Shown here: one piece after another, positions 1,777-10,388 of the stretch
Layout of the letters: every line of letters begins with the position of its first letter
Position numbering within the stretch: the stretch's first letter is position 1
Assembly: GCA_028293625.1 (NCBI GenBank)
Contig: JAQGOL010000030.1
Coordinates: 434,001-498,000 of the forward strand
Direction: 5' to 3'
From: Chthoniobacteraceae bacterium
GTDB lineage: Bacteria; Verrucomicrobiota; Verrucomicrobiia; Chthoniobacterales; Chthoniobacteraceae
DNA length: 64,000 bases
The notes under the pieces: model-generated
Told to the model about the DNA's origin: nothing
Seen by the model: the letters and a program-made list of their open reading frames with translations, nothing else
Database searches by the model: none
Translations under genes and position numbers: made by a program

Positions 1777-4700
1777 ATGAAAAACAGAGCCTGTTCCTTT
1801 CTCGCTTCCGGCATCCTGCGCCTGATTGCGATTGTTTCCTTCCTGGCAATTCCGGCGGCTTCCAAGGCCGTGCCTGTGCTGCAGGATCTGCTTTCTGAGC
1901 CGACCGCGCCAACCGCCACTTTGAAGGTCACACCGACCATTCCCGTCGGTAAGGCGCTCGTTTTTCCCGTCAGCGCTTATGATGACTCCGGCAGCCCATT
2001 GACGTTTACGGTAAAGAGCAGCAACCCGGCGATCATGGCCCGGGTGCGGACTGGCAATCCGCTTTTAAAACTAAATATTTCCCACGCTGCCGGCACCGAT
2101 CCCGCCGTGGATCCCGCTTATAATGGGACACTCGTATTTCAGCTATTCCGTGATTGGACCCCAATGGCGGCCGGCTTCATTGGCGGATTCGCCCAGTCCG
2201 GCAGCCTCGATAACACCAGGTTTCAGCGGCTTTCCGATCTCAACGGAAGCGTGGGTGCGGCTGAGAGCTTCATTTATCAGGGTGGCGGGCAGACGAGTCT
2301 GGGATTCACTTTTGAAAATGAATTGAGGGCTCCCCTGCTCTTCTCGGGACGCGGCCAGCTCGCGATGGCCAACGCGGGAACCGATGCGGTGACCTACACC
2401 GGCACGAACAGCTCACAGTTCTTCATCACCCACGGCAACCTGCCCCGCAGCACAGCCCCCACAGGCAGCGTGATTCCTTTGGGCGGACCGCGGCATCTCG
2501 ATTTCAAGCATACCGTTTTTGGCCAGCTCACCCATGGCTGGGATGTGATGGACAAATTCCATAACACACCGCGCACTTCGGATTCGCCGGTCGTGGCGGT
2601 CAACATCGCGTCAGCCGGTGTCTCGCCCCGGTATGACGATGGCACCCATATTTATACCGATGCGGTTTTGCTGCTCACGGCCAATTCTTCCGGCACGGCG
2701 ACGATCACCGTAAGTGTTACCGACGGACATTCCGCACCGGTGACAAGCACTTTTACGGCCACAGCAAAACCGGATACCAACAACTCTGCGCCTTTTGTCA
2801 TCGCGCCGCAAAACGCAGTGGGGCCGAAAGAGAAGATCTTCAGTGTGCCTTTGGTAAAAGCGGCGGACCTTGAATATGATTACATCTCGACGGCGAGCGG
2901 CCTGGTGAATGGAAGCGGGAGCCATGGGCAGTCGCAACAGCAGTCAGGCCTGGTTTATGTGCTTGGCAGTCCCGGCTTCACGGGTGTGCTGCATCTCGCC
3001 TTTGGGATCACTCAGTTTGACATGAGCTATCGCGGACAGGTAGACGGCGATGCGACCGATTTTTCACAACTTGTCTCGGCCAATCTCGGCGTGGGCGACG
3101 AGCTGGCGAGGCTCGAGCCGATTGGCATTTATGCGCAGCCCGGCACGGCCATGACCAATGTGGCGATCGCCAAATTTCTCGATGATGACAGCCGAGGCGG
3201 CGCGGCGGGCTTTACCGCCAGCATCAACTGGGGCGACGGTTCGGCGCTTAGCACCGGCGTCATCACCGCTGACACCTCACGTCCGGTATTTGCGGGCGCC
3301 CTGGTCATGGGGACGCATACGTTTGCAAAGGAAGGCAATTACACGATCACTACCACGATTTTTGGCGACAAAGGCTTTATTGGCAGCACACGCAGCGCCG
3401 CCACTGTGAGCGCCAAAGCATTGCGCGCGCTTGGACAGGACATCGTTTTCAAAGGCAAAAACGTCTCCAACGTCGTGCTTGCCTCCATCTCGGACACGGC
3501 TCCCGTGGCGCCAAAACAGTATGAGGTGACGATCGACTGGGGTGACGGCACGGTCGGTCCCGGACAGGTAAAGGCCGATCGGACCGGCAAACTTTTTGTC
3601 TTTGGGAACCACACTTATCTCGATGCCGAAACTTTTTCCCTGGGAATCCGCGTGCATAAAACCGGCGGTGACGCCGCCCAGGATGCCCAGACATGGAGTG
3701 CCATCAAGCTGAACGGATTCAATGGCCCATTGCATCTCCCCCCGTTTTCCCAGGCGCATCTTATTGGCGACATTAATCAGGTGGCCAATCTGGCGGTCGG
3801 CAATGCGGCGCCCACTTACAAGAACTTCCGGAGCACGACCGGCACGGGCGCAAACGAACGAACGCTTTTCACCTGCGAGATGGTGATCATCAATTCAGGC
3901 AACCTCCCTTCCAAGCCCGGCAAACTTCGCTTTTACCTTTCAGCCGATAAAAAGCGCACAAAACTCGATCCCGCGGAAAATCCCGCTGACATTCCTTTAA
4001 AAATCGGACCGATTACGGAATTTGATATTCCTGCACAGGCGCCAGGCGCCGGGATTCGATATGTGTGCGACAAACTCTCCAGTGTCGATCTGCGGCTGAA
4101 ACCGTTGCGCGCCCAGGACGTGACCGAGAACGGCACGGGCCTTAATCTTATTGGCGTGATTCGTTATTCGGACCCGCTGGCGGACAAGGAACCGATCGAT
4201 ATCGCCGCGGTGGCCGGCCCATTCAATGGCATCAACGTGCGGCTTATTGGACCTTTGAATCCGAATGGCGGCCTCCAGACCACCAAGGCGGTGGGCGACG
4301 CGCATACAGCCAAATTCAGCGTCTCGATTGATCGGCAGCCCGCGGCGGGCCAGAAGGTGGTGATCAAGGCGACGGTTCTGCATACACGGCTTCTGCCTCC
4401 GGACAATCTGGTGGCGGCGCCGGCGGAAGGAACACTCTCCTCCCTGGAAGATCCGGTCACCAAGCTGCCGACCGACCCGGTGACTTTGACCTTTGATTCC
4501 ACGAACTGGCAATCGGTCAAGGAAGTGACCGTGACAGGCAACGCGGAGAGCGTATTGACCGGCAACACTCCTTATATAATCCAGGTCAGTGTCGACCCAT
4601 TGACGACGACGGATCCCCGTTTCAAGGAGCTTGATCCGGCTGATGTGAGCGTGATCAACCTCGACACGGTGGTGCCCACGATCATCCTTTCCAAGACTTC

Positions 4701-5379
4701 GCTGACCACCACCGAAGCGCTCGGCGCGGGGCACATCGGCAAATTTGGTGTCAAGATCAGCCCCGCGCCGCTGGCCAACCAGTCGGTGGTGGTCCGGGTG
4801 GAAAGTCAAAACACGGCTGAAGGGACTGTCGACAAGGCCCTGCTTACCTTTAACTCCAATAACTTCAATGTTTCCCAGGAGGTAACCGTTACTGGTGTCG
4901 ATGATCAGGTTGTCGATCCCGACGTCACCTACAACGTCCATGTGAGCCGGGACTCCACGACGGTTGATCCACGCTTTAACAACGTGGCCGCCGTTGACCT
5001 GCCGGTCACCAATGTCGATGCGGCGCCCAAGGTGATTGTGAGCCCGACGGCCATCAGCACCAGCGAGGCCGCGGGTGCGGTGCCGGCAAACTTTACCGTT
5101 AAGTTAAGTGAAAAACCGGGCGTCGGAGCCGACGTCACGATCACCCTGACCAACGGCAATCCGGCGCAGGGCACCCTGGATAAAACGACGCTCGTCTTCA
5201 CTTCGGCCAATGCCACCGATGCGCAAACCGTTAGTGTCACCGGGGTGGCCGATCCGCTCCACACCGGGCAGCAGACTTATAAAATCACCGTTAATCCGTC
5301 GGTCTGCAATCAGCTCCGCTTCAACGGGCTCAAAGGGAGCGACGTAACCGTGACCAATCTGAACGACGCGCAGCCATGA
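1777..5379 (+). CDS. Large secreted protein: cyclophilin domain, PKD-like and Calx-beta-like repeats
   Basis: About 1200 residues from the ATG at 1777, chosen because it starts a good Sec signal peptide (MKNRACSFLASGILRLIAI..., Ala-rich end near AASKA). An upstream Met at 1705 is possible but would bury the signal. Roughly residues 80-290 form a cyclophilin-type peptidyl-prolyl isomerase domain: FQR holds the catalytic Arg position, and SSQFFITHG and FGQLTHGWDVMD match family blocks. Residues about 470-670 carry PKD-like repeats (INWGDGS, IDWGDGT). The last 400 residues hold three Calx-beta-like repeats with the pattern F.V.I...P......V.......GT.....LTF....... and VTVTGV. The gene ends in an ATGA overlap with the next gene, so the two are translationally coupled. 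Likely exported; a role in surface or matrix structure is inference. Confidence 0.8.
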   Translation: MKNRACSFLASGILRLIAIVSFLAIPAASKAVPVLQDLLSEPTAPTATLKVTPTIPVGKALVFPVSAYDDSGSPLTFTVKSSNPAIMARVRTGNPLLKLNISHAAGTDPAVDPAYNGTLVFQLFRDWTPMAAGFIGGFAQSGSLDNTRFQRLSDLNGSVGAAESFIYQGGGQTSLGFTFENELRAPLLFSGRGQLAMANAGTDAVTYTGTNSSQFFITHGNLPRSTAPTGSVIPLGGPRHLDFKHTVFGQLTHGWDVMDKFHNTPRTSDSPVVAVNIASAGVSPRYDDGTHIYTDAVLLLTANSSGTATITVSVTDGHSAPVTSTFTATAKPDTNNSAPFVIAPQNAVGPKEKIFSVPLVKAADLEYDYISTASGLVNGSGSHGQSQQQSGLVYVLGSPGFTGVLHLAFGITQFDMSYRGQVDGDATDFSQLVSANLGVGDELARLEPIGIYAQPGTAMTNVAIAKFLDDDSRGGAAGFTASINWGDGSALSTGVITADTSRPVFAGALVMGTHTFAKEGNYTITTTIFGDKGFIGSTRSAATVSAKALRALGQDIVFKGKNVSNVVLASISDTAPVAPKQYEVTIDWGDGTVGPGQVKADRTGKLFVFGNHTYLDAETFSLGIRVHKTGGDAAQDAQTWSAIKLNGFNGPLHLPPFSQAHLIGDINQVANLAVGNAAPTYKNFRSTTGTGANERTLFTCEMVIINSGNLPSKPGKLRFYLSADKKRTKLDPAENPADIPLKIGPITEFDIPAQAPGAGIRYVCDKLSSVDLRLKPLRAQDVTENGTGLNLIGVIRYSDPLADKEPIDIAAVAGPFNGINVRLIGPLNPNGGLQTTKAVGDAHTAKFSVSIDRQPAAGQKVVIKATVLHTRLLPPDNLVAAPAEGTLSSLEDPVTKLPTDPVTLTFDSTNWQSVKEVTVTGNAESVLTGNTPYIIQVSVDPLTTTDPRFKELDPADVSVINLDTVVPTIILSKTSLTTTEALGAGHIGKFGVKISPAPLANQSVVVRVESQNTAEGTVDKALLTFNSNNFNVSQEVTVTGVDDQVVDPDVTYNVHVSRDSTTVDPRFNNVAAVDLPVTNVDAAPKVIVSPTAISTSEAAGAVPANFTVKLSEKPGVGADVTITLTNGNPAQGTLDKTTLVFTSANATDAQTVSVTGVADPLHTGQQTYKITVNPSVCNQLRFNGLKGSDVTVTNLNDAQP

Positions 5380-8300
5380 AAAATCGCCCCAATCTTCTAG
5401 TGAAACTTTGGCGCAAGCTGCGTCCGATCAAACCTGTGCGGCTTCGCGGGACCGAACCCAAAGAACGTCCGGCGCCCCGTGGTCTGAGCATTGAACCGCT
5501 TGAAGGGCGTATTGCGCCGGCCACGCTGTTAAGTCCGACCACGGTCAGTTATCACGATATCGACGGCGATCTGGTAACCATCAAGTTTTCCAAGTCGATT
5601 CTCCCGGCTACATTGACCGACGCGCAGCTCAGCACGGTATTTAAATTCAGCGCGGGCGGCGGAGCCTGGGGACCCGACGCCGATGTCAATCAGCAGCTTC
5701 AGCTGATCGATCTTTCGCTGACCCCCGGCATCAACGGGAAAAATCCCGCGGCTGGTGTTTCCATGACGGTTTCGGTGACGCAAGCCGGCAATGGAGACGG
5801 CCATGCAAACATTGGCGCGATCAAAGGAGGACAGCTTGCACTTGGGGCGATCAGCATCGACGGCGACTTGGGACAAATTGACTGCGGCAACGCCAGGGAT
5901 CACATCGGATTAAAATCCTTGAGCGTCTACTCCCTGGGCGTCGACGCCGGTTCCCAGCTCGGCACCGCCACTTACGAGAGCACGATCATTGGAGTTCTCG
6001 GATCGTTGACGGTCACCACAAATATCCATGAAGCGTATGTGCACGTCATCAATGGCATCCATTTAACCGGGCCTTTGATCGTGCATGGTGACATCGGCAA
6101 GGTCACCGTCGGCGGTTCACTGGAAGGACGCGCCCAAGTGCTCGGCACCAGCGAAAACACCGGCACCATCCTGACCGATGGAAATATCGGCACCGTCAAA
6201 ATCGGGACTTCGGCAACCGATGGATTGAAAGGCGGCGGCGGCAAGAACTCGGGCTCCATCGTTGCCGGCGGCAACATCGGCACCATCACCGTTTCGGGTT
6301 CGCTAATCGGTAAGGATGGGCTCGGCAGCGGCGGCATTTCCGCCAACGGCAATATCGGTAAAATTTTCATCGGCACCGGCATCTCGCCGGTTTCAAGCGG
6401 CGCCACGGATGGATTGATCGGCGGGATCGGGAAAAATTCCGGCTCCGTGACCGTGCTGGGACAAGTCGGCAGTGTCAGTGTCAATGGACATTTGGGCGGT
6501 GGCGAAGGGATCAGCAGCGGTGGCATCACCGTGACGAAAAGCATGGGGGCCGTGAAAATCTTCGGATCCATCGACGGCGGCAAAGGCGTGGGATCCGGCG
6601 TGGTGAGCACAGGCGGCGACCTGGGCGCGGTTACCGTGACGGGGCACGTCATGGGAGGCGATGGGCAGACTTCCGGCGGGATCAAGGCGGGCGGCAGCCT
6701 GGCGAGCTTCACACTCAGCAATACATCACCGGCTGACGGCTTTTTATCGGCGGGCGTGGGTGACGGGACCGGCGTGGTTGCAAGCGCTGGAGCGATGGGC
6801 GCAGTGAAAATTTCCGGCAGCCTGCTTGGCGTCAATGGATTGAGATCGGGCGGAATTTCGGCTGGTGGGAACCTTGCCAGCGTGCTGCTTGGCGGCGGGA
6901 TCGTTGGCGGAAGCAAGCTGGGAGGCGGCTTCATCAAGGCAGGCGGCAACATCGGCTTGGTCACAATAGGCGAATTGGTGGAGAGCAATATCCAGGGCGG
7001 TTCGGGCGACGAAACAGGATTGATCTCCAGCGGCGGAGCGATCGGCACGGTGAAAGTTTCCGGCAGTATTATCGGCGGTAACTATGTCGTGCCGGCACCC
7101 GCGGAAGGGAGCGGCAACCCTGTTGTGATTACCCCTGCCCTAATCGGCTTTAACTCCGGTGGCATTCTTGCCAAAGGGAATTTGGCGGGCGTCACGGTGG
7201 CAAAAAACATCATCGGCGGCACGAAACTCTTTAGCGGTTTTATCGACGGATTAAACGTCGGCACGATCAGGATCAGCGGCGATGTGATCGGAGGCACGGG
7301 AGATCATTCAGGGTCGATTGTCAGTGAATCGGCGCTTCAAAATGTGACGGTCACGGGTGAGCTCAAAGGAGGGGCCGGCGCGTTCAGCGGCTCGATTTTC
7401 AGCAGCGTTGGATCGGGCGTCGGCCACGACCTGGGGTCGGTCACCATTGGCAAATCAATCATCGGCGGCGGGGGCGATAACTCGGGGATGATCAGTGCCG
7501 GCGGCCGGCTCCTGAAGGCGGTCATCGGCACCACGGGCTCGGTAGCCATGCAAGGAGGAGGCGGATCGTTCAGCGGCGGAATTTTTTCCGGATCGTCCAT
7601 TGTTTCGGCGACAATCAACGGGGAAGTGCAGGGCGGCGGCGGAGCGAATTCCGCGTCGATCCAAACAGGCGTTTCAATCGACAAATTAACAATCAATGGC
7701 GCGCTGAAAGGTGGCGGAGGAACCATGAGTGGCTCGATCGTCACGTACGATGCCTTTGAAAGAACCGGCGACATCGGGACCGTTTCCATCACCGGCGGAA
7801 TCGTGGGAGGAGCGGGACGTGATTCCGGTTCAATCGAGGCGGAAGGCTCCATCAAATCAGTGACGCTTGGTTCGATGATGGGCAATGCGGGCGATTACAG
7901 CGGCTCAGTCCTCTCAGGAACGAGCATCTTTCATTCGGGTTCGACCGGCAGCCTGGTGATTTTGGGAAATGTCACCGGCGGTGCCGGAGCGCATTCCGGG
8001 ACCATCGAGGCCGACGGGAATCTTGCGAGTATCAAAATCGGCGTGAATCTCCAACAAAGCGCCATCCGCGCCGGCGACGCCATCGGTTCCATCACGGTCG
8101 CCGGTTCAGTCGATGATTCAGTGATTTCCGCGCGCGGCCAGGTTCTTCAGGGAAAATCGACCGACCTGGCGATTGCCGCGTTTAATGCCGGCTCGGTTTC
8201 CAACTCACAAATTCTTGCCGGATACGACTTGGACGGCGTTGGTGTAAATCCCGATGCGCAGATCGGCGCGATCAAAATCATTGGCGCCTGGGAAGCAAGC

Positions 8301-8606
8301 GATGTGGTGGCGGGCGTTGGCAATGCGGGTGGGAACTTTGGTTCCATCACGGATTTCAAACTCACTGGAACCGATAACGCGGCCATCATTTCCCGAATTG
8401 CCTCGGTGACAATCGGAGGAGCCGTCACAGGAAGCAGTGCTTCCACTAACGATCACTTTGGTTTTGTGGCGGAAGAGATCCTTGCCTTTAAAAACGGCGG
8501 CGCGGTGGTCGGGCTTGTTAAAAACGCGATCGATCCCGTTGCGGAGCTTGATGGAGCCAACCACGACGTCTCGGTGCGTGAGCTTGCACCGGCACAACCC
8601 GTTTAA
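5376..8606 (+). CDS. Giant glycine-rich beta-helix repeat protein with LEGRIAPA-type N-terminal motif
   Basis: A 1076-residue protein whose start overlaps the previous stop (ATGA). The first 50 residues are rich in Lys/Arg and end in IEPLEGRIAPATLL. This resembles the LExRIAPA/LEPR-type motifs that mark the N-termini of large surface proteins in Verrucomicrobiota and Planctomycetota; there is no ordinary hydrophobic signal peptide. From about residue 200 to 900 the protein is a degenerate tandem repeat, SGGI.A.GN(I/L)G.V.(I/V).G...GG.G, with a period of about 38-40 residues. Alternating short hydrophobic strands and Gly turns are typical of a right-handed beta-helix. There are almost no Cys residues. 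No catalytic motif was seen. Function unknown; a surface or adhesive structural role is inference. Confidence 0.8.
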   Translation: MKNRPNLLVKLWRKLRPIKPVRLRGTEPKERPAPRGLSIEPLEGRIAPATLLSPTTVSYHDIDGDLVTIKFSKSILPATLTDAQLSTVFKFSAGGGAWGPDADVNQQLQLIDLSLTPGINGKNPAAGVSMTVSVTQAGNGDGHANIGAIKGGQLALGAISIDGDLGQIDCGNARDHIGLKSLSVYSLGVDAGSQLGTATYESTIIGVLGSLTVTTNIHEAYVHVINGIHLTGPLIVHGDIGKVTVGGSLEGRAQVLGTSENTGTILTDGNIGTVKIGTSATDGLKGGGGKNSGSIVAGGNIGTITVSGSLIGKDGLGSGGISANGNIGKIFIGTGISPVSSGATDGLIGGIGKNSGSVTVLGQVGSVSVNGHLGGGEGISSGGITVTKSMGAVKIFGSIDGGKGVGSGVVSTGGDLGAVTVTGHVMGGDGQTSGGIKAGGSLASFTLSNTSPADGFLSAGVGDGTGVVASAGAMGAVKISGSLLGVNGLRSGGISAGGNLASVLLGGGIVGGSKLGGGFIKAGGNIGLVTIGELVESNIQGGSGDETGLISSGGAIGTVKVSGSIIGGNYVVPAPAEGSGNPVVITPALIGFNSGGILAKGNLAGVTVAKNIIGGTKLFSGFIDGLNVGTIRISGDVIGGTGDHSGSIVSESALQNVTVTGELKGGAGAFSGSIFSSVGSGVGHDLGSVTIGKSIIGGGGDNSGMISAGGRLLKAVIGTTGSVAMQGGGGSFSGGIFSGSSIVSATINGEVQGGGGANSASIQTGVSIDKLTINGALKGGGGTMSGSIVTYDAFERTGDIGTVSITGGIVGGAGRDSGSIEAEGSIKSVTLGSMMGNAGDYSGSVLSGTSIFHSGSTGSLVILGNVTGGAGAHSGTIEADGNLASIKIGVNLQQSAIRAGDAIGSITVAGSVDDSVISARGQVLQGKSTDLAIAAFNAGSVSNSQILAGYDLDGVGVNPDAQIGAIKIIGAWEASDVVAGVGNAGGNFGSITDFKLTGTDNAAIISRIASVTIGGAVTGSSASTNDHFGFVAEEILAFKNGGAVVGLVKNAIDPVAELDGANHDVSVRELAPAQPV

Positions 8607-8697: not shown

Positions 8698-9687
8698 ATG
8701 AAAAAACTTCCCCTCCTCCTTCTGACATCCATCCTCGCCATCGGATGCGGCGCGGCTGCACTCCTACAAATGCGCGCCAACGCAGTGCTTCAGGCATCGG
8801 CGCTTCGATTAAACCAAACCGTCGAAGAACAAGCTGCCGAACTGGGCAAACTTCAGGCCGAGCAGGAAAAAGTGCGAAGCCAGAGTGAAGCGTTCCAGGC
8901 CGAATCGCAGGAATTGCGCAAACTGCTGGCGGCAAAAAATGTTCCGGCCGCAAACGTCGCTTCAAACCCGGTGGAAGAGGGAGTAAACGCCGGCGCAAAA
9001 GAGGGCAAACCCGAGGAGGGCGGATTTATGAAGAAAATGGCGAAGATGTATGACGATCCCGCCATGAAAAAGGTCATGCGCACCCAGCAATTAATGGGGA
9101 TCAAAATGCTCTATGCCGACCTGGGCAAAGAACTCGGTCTATCTTCGGAAGACGCCAGCCAGCTCATGGAACTGCTCGCCGACCGGCAGGTCGATATCAG
9201 CGCCAAAAGCCTGGCGATATTGGGAGAGGGAGGAGATGCGAAGAGCGTGACGGCGAGCAAGGAGGAACACGACCAGCAGATCAAAGGATTGATTGGCGAG
9301 GACCGGATGAAAAAGCTTACCGAGTACGAAGCGGGAATAGGCGATCGGATGCAAATGCAGCAGGTCCAGCAATCGCTGACTTCAAGTGGAATGCCATTGG
9401 ATGAAAAGCAGCGCGCCTCTCTGCTTAGCATCATGAAGGAGGAGCGTCTTGTCACGCCGCCCAATCCTTTCACGGCCAACGCTCAGAATCCGACCGCGCA
9501 AATCAAGGCGATGCAGTCCGGGGAAGGGGTCGATCAATTTGTAAAAAGCACTGAAGACTTCAATCAACGCGTCTCACGCCGGGCGCGAGGCGTCTTAAAT
9601 CCGGACCAGATCAACAGCTTCGATGCCACGCAAAAACAACAGCTCGAAATGATTCAAATGAGCATGAAGTTCATGAAGCAAAAGTGA
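8698..9687 (+). CDS. Membrane-anchored coiled-coil protein of unknown function
   Basis: A 329-residue protein starting at the ATG at 8698; an in-frame earlier start at 8659 only adds a non-hydrophobic leader. Residues 1-25 form a hydrophobic signal or anchor (KKLPLLLLTSILAIGCG). Residues about 30-75 are a coiled coil rich in Glu, Gln and Leu. The remainder is Met-, Lys- and Gln-rich and predicted helical, with segments such as GLSSEDASQLMELLADRQ and RGVLNPDQINSF. These LTxxQ-like patterns occur in periplasmic stress or repressor-like proteins, but I do not recognise the family. It follows the giant repeat protein by about 90 nt and could share its transcript. Confidence 0.7.
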   Translation: MKKLPLLLLTSILAIGCGAAALLQMRANAVLQASALRLNQTVEEQAAELGKLQAEQEKVRSQSEAFQAESQELRKLLAAKNVPAANVASNPVEEGVNAGAKEGKPEEGGFMKKMAKMYDDPAMKKVMRTQQLMGIKMLYADLGKELGLSSEDASQLMELLADRQVDISAKSLAILGEGGDAKSVTASKEEHDQQIKGLIGEDRMKKLTEYEAGIGDRMQMQQVQQSLTSSGMPLDEKQRASLLSIMKEERLVTPPNPFTANAQNPTAQIKAMQSGEGVDQFVKSTEDFNQRVSRRARGVLNPDQINSFDATQKQQLEMIQMSMKFMKQK

Positions 9688-9728
9688 ACGGCATTGCTCC
9701 CGGCGGTGCGCTGACTAGAAACTGATTG

Positions 9729-10388
9729 ATGACCAAGTCAGAAATCATTCAGCGACTCCTTGAGCCAGGCGTCATCGCAATTATCCGCGCCGACTCATCC
9801 GGCCAACTCCTTGCAGCGGCGGAAGCGCTTTATGCCGGCGGCGTGACGGCGATGGAAGTAACCATGACGACACCAAACGCGTTGCAGGTCATCAGTGACG
9901 TAACGACCCGGTTCGCGGGCAAAATCCTCATGGGCGTCGGTTCGGTCCTGGATAGCGAGACCGCGCGCGCGGCGATGCTCGCCGGAGCGGAGTTCGTCGT
10001 GACACCGGTTACGCGGCCGGAGGTCATCCGGATTTGCAACCGGTATGGCAAACCGATTGCCAGCGGCGCTTTCACGGCGACTGAAGCCTTGCTGGCTCAC
10101 GAGTCCGGCTCGGATTTCGTCAAGATCTTCCCTTCTGATCAGGTCGGGCCGGCTTATATCAAGAACCTGCTCGCGCCGTTACCGATGCTCCAGATTATCC
10201 CCACCGGAGGCGTCACGCCGGACACGGCGGCGGCATTTATCCATGCGGGCAGCGTGGCGCTCGGCGTCGGTTCAAGCCTGGTTTCCAAAGAGATTTTAAA
10301 AAGTGGCGACTGGGCAAGACTGACAGAGCTCGCGGCTGAATTTGTGCAGATTACCCGGGGAGCGCGCACTTTCAGCCCGTTGCACTGA
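9729..10388 (+). CDS. eda: 2-dehydro-3-deoxy-phosphogluconate (KDPG/KHG) aldolase
   Basis: A 219-residue class I aldolase of the Entner-Doudoroff KDPG/KHG family. Visible motifs are GVIAIIRAD near the start, MEVTMTTPNA with the catalytic Glu, VGSVLD, and DFVKIFPSD with the Schiff-base Lys. They are followed by IPTGGV and GVGSSLV, which bind phosphate. It cleaves 2-keto-3-deoxy-6-phosphogluconate to pyruvate and glyceraldehyde 3-phosphate, or acts on 4-hydroxy-2-oxoglutarate. The ATG at 9729 is used; a TTG directly before it is in frame. No dehydratase or kinase of a sugar-acid pathway lies next to it, so the exact in vivo substrate is open. Confidence 0.92.
   Translation: MTKSEIIQRLLEPGVIAIIRADSSGQLLAAAEALYAGGVTAMEVTMTTPNALQVISDVTTRFAGKILMGVGSVLDSETARAAMLAGAEFVVTPVTRPEVIRICNRYGKPIASGAFTATEALLAHESGSDFVKIFPSDQVGPAYIKNLLAPLPMLQIIPTGGVTPDTAAAFIHAGSVALGVGSSLVSKEILKSGDWARLTELAAEFVQITRGARTFSPLH

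Follow-up and report, generated by a model that had tools for sequence, protein, structure and literature searches.

The DNA analyzed here (the window) is a stretch of 64,000 nucleotides covering positions 434,001 to 498,000 of contig JAQGOL010000030.1 (C31:434001-498000) in the 6.83-Mb genome of a Chthoniobacteraceae bacterium (GCA_028293625.1). Close to its start lie two very large genes that we refer to as cycA and rep, the first encoding a protein with a cyclophilin domain and the second a glycine-rich repeat protein. An earlier sequence-only reading had described them as an ATGA-coupled pair of giant open reading frames (ORFs), and this was confirmed: the two genes, of 1200 and 1076 codons for amino acids, share the four nucleotides in which cycA stops and rep starts. 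Translation of cycA was placed at the ATG at 1777, although its reading frame is already open from a TTG at 1705, and its stop codon ends at 5379. The features of the pair are as follows (window coordinates).

1777-5379, forward strand: cycA, 1200 amino acids, with a Sec-like leader, a cyclophilin domain, a PKD-like pair and C-terminal beta-rich stretches
1777-1869, forward strand: hydrophobic N-terminal leader of CycA, residues 1-31 (Kyte-Doolittle maximum of 2.33 over 15 residues)
2050-2631, forward strand: cyclophilin (peptidyl-prolyl isomerase) domain of CycA, residues 92-285 (PF00160; VIA Z 19.1-20.5; site residues given below)
2227-2229 and 2509-2511, forward strand: codons of the catalytic-site residues Arg151 and His245
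3139-3726, forward strand: PKD-like pair of CycA, residues 455-650 (PF00801 at 20.7 bits, below cut-off)
4339-5376, forward strand: C-terminal beta-rich stretches of CycA, residues 855-1200 (internal alignment and all-beta model; Calx-beta-like by eye)
5376-5379, forward strand: ATGA stop/start overlap of cycA and rep
5376-8606, forward strand: rep, 1076 amino acids, with a Gly-rich, Pro-poor body
5376-5498, forward strand: leader of Rep, residues 1-41, basic (12 Lys/Arg) and Pro-rich (7 Pro)
5499-5522, forward strand: LEGRIAPA tag of Rep, residues 42-49 (all 15 aligned Reps keep LE.RIAPA)
5487-7055, forward strand: Rep residues 38-560, the portion with a beta-helix model (predicted local distance difference test score, pLDDT, 87.5; predicted template modelling score, pTM, 0.88)
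6063-8075, forward strand: Gly-rich repeat region of Rep, the commonest Gly spacing being 26 residues
8073-8603, forward strand: conserved C-terminal region of Rep (Rep alignment; profile match to the C-terminus of CycB, a second cyclophilin protein described below)

The arrangement of the two genes is conserved. Among 15 readable junctions (that of the window and 14 others), the distance from the cycA stop to the rep start ranged from -4 to +14 nucleotides, with five junctions at -4 (ATGA in four, GTGA in the other), five at +1, four between +2 and +4 and one at +14, three of the Rep starts having been placed at a conserved internal Met. Because all 15 readable pairs keep a tight junction, a chance junction was rejected; the ATGA overlap further suggests that CycA and Rep may be made at a fixed ratio. 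Every pair found belongs to a Chthoniobacteraceae genome. One of these (G002) displays the order cycA-rep-cycA-rep with successive spacings of +1, -4 and -4, and another (G001) has cycA at the end of one contig and rep at the end of a second; by eye, the genes that follow its rep resemble those that follow rep in the window. Across 40 genomes of the family, CycA (called at E-values up to 1e-30) was present in 15 and Rep (profile E-values up to 1e-20) in 14, all of them inside the 15, while 25 genomes had neither. Thus, the co-occurrence on which the sequence-only reading had proposed to test itself holds within the family, and homologues that never pair with the repeat gene are not what was found. 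Carriers made up seven of the ten genomes of genus g5 and one of the five of genus g9, so that joint presence varies within genera. Finally, the distances between CycA proteins and those between Rep proteins were strongly correlated over 15 pairs (Mantel r 0.93, a value reached in none of 9,999 permutations). The trees agree, too, on the two copies of the pair in G002 and the two in G008, which fell in matching clades. These observations bear on the simplest alternative, namely that common descent alone keeps two unrelated surface proteins in one operon, without any joint work. All pairs being confined to one bacterial family, and the trees partly tracking descent, agree with it; paired paralogues of single genomes in matching clades, the variation of joint presence inside g5 and g9, and the persistence of tight spacing among CycA proteins that are only 30-46% identical to that of the window do not, and we hold this alternative to be quite unlikely.

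CycA begins with the hydrophobic leader, in which we read a probable cleavage site after SKA. Residues 116-282 match PF00160 (E-value 7e-20; 72.2 bits for a cut-off of 21.7), and both motifs singled out by the sequence-only reading, FQR (which contains Arg151) and SSQFFITHG, are present, so that its identification of a cyclophilin domain with a retained catalytic Arg was borne out. An AlphaFold2 model of CycA (mean pLDDT 82.5) consists of an all-beta chain around the cyclophilin. In a VIA comparison testing mainly residues 91-285, the modelled domain resembled many cyclophilins at Z scores of ~19-20.5, with root-mean-square deviations of 1.3-2.2 Å over ~150 residues in most rows; structure prediction, which had been suggested as a check, thus returned a cyclophilin fold at Z ~20. 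The active site was compared with that of CypA at 11 positions, including Asn102 and Gln111, which we take to be CypA site residues. Nine of the 11 are identical in the CycA of the window, His occupying the place of Trp121 and Ile that of Met61, and the pocket is lined by Arg151, Phe165, Gln168, Ala198, Phe216, His240 (in the Trp121 place), Leu241 and His245. The other nine positions are those given in the available text of PMC2911226, in which a His at the Trp121 position is described as permissive for cyclosporin.

We then aligned 31 homologues, 18 from Chthoniobacteraceae and 13 chosen among 33 cyclophilin genes of more than 400 amino acids at loci L072-L130, which lie outside the family genomes (L057-L130 being the best 80 of 247 candidates, at 74 distinct loci). 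The equivalents of Arg55, Gln63, Ala101, Asn102 and Phe113 were found in 31 of 31 proteins, those of Leu122 and Gln111 in 30 each, and those of Phe60 and His126 in 28 each. The Met61 place held Met in just four proteins, and the Trp121 place held His in 15, that of the window included. The domain of the G010 CycA deviates at three of these positions, Gln111 being replaced by Asp, Leu122 by Ile and His126 by Asn. Loss of active-site residues, the outcome that had been named as fatal to the first proposal, is rejected by this conservation, and the cyclophilin of CycA appears intact, probably active and probably able to bind cyclosporin.

The remainder of CycA is less easily assigned. On the isolated piece of the protein, PKD (PF00801) reached 20.7 bits and failed the cut-off of 23.5, the paralogue G002_A2 passing at 25.8 bits; the two WGDG motifs of the pair are invariant or nearly so in the CycA family alignment. 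Calx-beta found no Pfam match in CycA, and the three C-terminal stretches could be aligned by eye but were not detected as a repeat by self-BLAST. Of the PKD-like and Calx-beta-like repeats first ascribed to CycA, the former are therefore retained as a weak, sub-threshold resemblance and the latter as a by-eye likeness. In the second CycA of G002 (L039:8652-13304), SdrD_B-like stretches, five of them passing, precede the cyclophilin. A Foldseek search with the whole CycA model gave very low E-values at template modelling scores (TM-scores) of ~0.1-0.3, and was not used as evidence of kinship.

Such an architecture raises the possibility that the pair is a structural or adhesive unit of the cell surface in which the cyclophilin merely binds proline or acts as a scaffolding domain, its catalysis being incidental. 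The long all-beta chain surrounding the cyclophilin fits this view, as do the top Foldseek rows, which are beta-sandwich chains and include some S-layer proteins, albeit at low TM-scores, and the occurrence, at loci whose records are titled Planctomycetota, of giant cyclophilins that lack Rep and sometimes carry surface-type motifs. Retention of the catalytic Arg in all 31 chosen sequences, which span two phyla by record title, nevertheless exceeds what binding would obviously need. We regard this possibility as rather unlikely.

Rep has no Pfam or NCBIfam family at E-values up to 1. The model of residues 38-560 is repetitive and almost all-beta, and its best VIA match, in a comparison testing mainly residues 120-523, was a calcium-dependent beta-helical antifreeze protein (Z 18.0; 251 residues; 2.9 Å); Foldseek returned no row with an E-value below 1 for the same piece. 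We read the N-terminal half of Rep as a predicted beta-helix, a statement of fold and not of kinship. Many Rep homologues terminate in an IREVA-like motif. The maximum hydropathy over 15 residues was 0.0-1.38 in 15 Reps as opposed to 1.42-2.39 in 18 CycA proteins, and no hydrophobic signal peptide was apparent by hydropathy among the 15 Reps. What lies near the N-terminus of this large protein is an LExRxxP-like motif, the tag LEGRIAPA. What speaks for the earlier description of both proteins as secreted is, for CycA, its hydrophobic N-terminus and, for Rep, which has no hydrophobic leader, resemblance to a surface motif only.

The tag and the cyclophilin come together in a third gene, cycB, which follows rep in eight loci and encodes proteins of 813-910 amino acids with the tag at their start and a PF00160 domain. 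The catalytic Arg is kept in nine of nine CycB proteins; all nine have Glu in place of Gln111 and lack His126, making their site less canonical than that of CycA. The C-terminal part of CycB matched the profile of the Rep C-terminus (probability 94%, 99 columns). The middle regions of CycA and CycB showed no significant match to each other. Against PF07595, neither the N-terminus of Rep (75 amino acids) nor that of CycB (82 amino acids) gave a row at E-values up to 10, in a search whose HMMER filters may hide weak matches to short models.

At the DNA level, the pattern LExR[IV]APA matched 18 times in the genome of the window. Among the 57 genomes searched, all 15 CycA carriers had the tag, with 8-27 matches in 12 of them and 1-3 in the other three (G001, G005 and G033); the 42 non-carriers never had more than three, four of them having 1-3. 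A reversed-pattern control matched 0-2 times per genome. When the proline was replaced (by codons starting with A, G or T, but not C), matches stayed near the control, at 3 vs 3 in the genome of the window and with the largest excess, 7 vs 2, in a non-carrier, and for this reason the proline of the tag looks nearly fixed. A long basic leader precedes the tag in 12 of 15 linked Reps, compared, among 39 unlinked tagged proteins, with seven when the first ATG is taken as the start and three when the last is, and the linked leaders are richer in Pro; the linked Reps are mutually related and hence not independent in this comparison, and the unlinked set consists of 40 proteins chosen from the listed tag matches minus L157, which has no start codon. 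Given that the tag accompanies Rep and CycA from genome to genome and that its proline looks nearly fixed, CycA and CycB might be prolyl isomerases that specifically serve the surface proteins bearing LExRIAPA, operating a cis/trans switch at the Ala-Pro of the tag and in Pro-rich leaders while these proteins are exported, processed or anchored; Rep would be a scaffold made together with the isomerases. We consider this very unlikely.

The sequence-only reading had proposed that CycA is the dedicated folding factor of Rep, accelerating its folding at the surface by isomerizing prolyl bonds. The conserved pairing and active site are in its favor, and there is a precedent in the extracellular cyclophilin SlrA, which speeds the folding of a secreted client according to the accessible part of PMC11853100. 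The composition of Rep is not. The bodies of Rep proteins, 825-1350 residues long, contain 7-18 prolines (0.7-1.9%), and beyond residue 54 only one alignment column is Pro in at least eight of 15 Reps (in 11 of them), a column at which the Rep of the window has none. The basic leader and the tag have the highest proline density, eight of the 24 prolines of the window's Rep falling within its first 49 residues. With so few prolyl bonds in the helix, prolyl isomerization is disfavored as a step in the folding of the repeats. Nor were the two genes seen side by side elsewhere: 17 further loci with Rep relatives, several of them cut by contig ends, had a Rep-profile ORF in 16 cases and a cyclophilin ORF in none (one of them, L146, is the split partner of the G001 CycA), and a Rep-profile neighbor was found beside none of the 33 long cyclophilin genes from loci outside the family genomes, a few of which lie at contig ends. 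The idea of a folding factor dedicated to the repeats is thus unsupported and, in our judgment, improbable, leaving the interpretation first offered for this locus partly supported overall.

We favor instead, at a probability of about 0.5, the view that in Chthoniobacteraceae cycA and rep, joined by cycB in many relatives, work as a single functional unit in building a structure of the cell surface or envelope. Rep would be an elongated beta-helix brought to the surface by the LExRIAPA tag; CycA would leave by the Sec route and display an intact, probably active cyclophilin on a chain of beta-sandwich domains; and CycB would be a tagged cyclophilin with a C-terminus resembling that of Rep. The proteins would meet outside the cytoplasm, where the cyclophilin may bind or isomerize proline segments during assembly. 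Should Rep be the client, its Pro-rich leader and tag would be likelier contacts than the nearly Pro-free helix. This proposal draws on what was observed of gene order, junction spacing, the shared presence or absence of the two genes, the broad agreement of their trees and the retained active site, and on folds that are predicted, in Rep for residues 38-560 only.

Several observations, to which the unpaired Rep relatives and long cyclophilins just described must be added, weigh against a single functional unit. Export of Rep is putative, being suggested by the likeness of its tag to a surface motif. G010 is placed differently in the CycA and Rep trees, some matching Rep nodes have a support of just ~0.8-0.9, and shared descent inflates the distance correlation and explains part of the joint inheritance. 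G005 (88% complete), the one CycA genome of 15 without Rep, has cycA twice in tandem and no rep alongside, the contig ending 621 nucleotides later, and elsewhere contains just a weak Rep fragment. CycA-like proteins without a Rep neighbor also occur in loci titled Planctomycetota, and long cyclophilin ORFs that are not CycA-like are found in non-carriers of the family itself (for instance 1158, 1084 and 1156 amino acids in G006, G026 and G029), so that a giant cyclophilin does not require Rep. As for CycB, the gene lies apart from the pair in the genome of the window (C31:413954-416812, ~19 kb upstream of cycA), and a plain profile search recovers the Rep-like end in one of nine CycB proteins.

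Scans for promoters and terminators flanking cycA-rep gave no signal clearly exceeding that of shuffled sequences. The gene directly after rep (window 8699-9687; P0003) encodes a protein that is coiled-coil-like by eye, with a hydrophobic N-terminus and no Pfam or NCBIfam family above cut-off. Its membership in the operon was unsupported, no P0003 homologue being marked among 18 related loci, and is also disfavored by G001, where rep is directly followed by a different gene, a by-eye homologue of window 9726-10388. Other giant cyclophilins were noted in passing. The genome of the window encodes one with PF00160, DUF7453 and an ASH-like domain, beside which no Rep is marked (L056:594-3605, contig C3 of G000), and two such genes lie in tandem both at a locus titled Phycisphaerales (L077:2-6732; gap of 20 nucleotides) and, similarly, at a Chthoniobacteraceae locus (L063; gap of 67 nucleotides). 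In two genera, tagged Rep relatives adjoin genes whose N-termini resemble, by eye, polysaccharide chain-length or export proteins (L134:8727-15347 and L139:7252-11443).

Cyclophilins are mostly small, general-purpose helpers. Here, they are embedded in giant, probably exported proteins and inherited along with a beta-helical partner and a surface tag that recurs across the genome. The finding is larger than first stated, the pair being a conserved, probably surface-located module of these soil-dwelling relatives of Chthoniobacter, one that often includes a second giant cyclophilin. If the operon serves an export pathway for tagged proteins, it offers a genetic handle on that pathway; at minimum, the pair plainly poses the question of what role a catalytic cyclophilin has beside a nearly Pro-free partner. 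Cyclophilins, surface motifs and beta-helices are each already known, and our literature search, whose coverage excluded most subscription papers and all bioRxiv preprints, returned no report of their combination in this operon or architecture. The best sequence matches of the CycA domain in the PDB are the streptococcal SlrA and PpiA (7L6Z and 7L6Y), exported cyclophilins with loop insertions, of which SlrA accelerates the folding of a client (PMC11853100, accessible part); unlike CycA, they are small (267 residues in SlrA) and have neither a beta-sandwich chain nor a paired beta-helix gene. AquaCyps, like CycA, are bacterial cyclophilins whose domain bears large extensions and insertions, but they come from marine Alphaproteobacteria, and the available portion of PMC4898713 mentions no repeat-protein partner. 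Rep, for its part, recalls the planctomycete surface proteins of the PF07595 type, very large proteins with an LExR... motif near the N-terminus that is only "thought to represent" an export signal, and whose Tuwongella variant, LxLExLExRxxP, also has a Pro, as described in the available main text of PMC8567305, where the word cyclophilin does not appear; the Rep tag differs in reading LEGRIAPA and in having no score against the profile. A last likeness is that of the predicted beta-helix of Rep to the two-partner secretion (TPS) domains of EtpA, HMW1, HxuA and FHA (VIA Z 9.4-13.2), although, in contrast to those exoproteins, Rep has no TPS-domain or other Pfam match at E-values up to 1. As the Z score to the antifreeze beta-helix is higher (18.0), this likeness probably reflects just a common fold.

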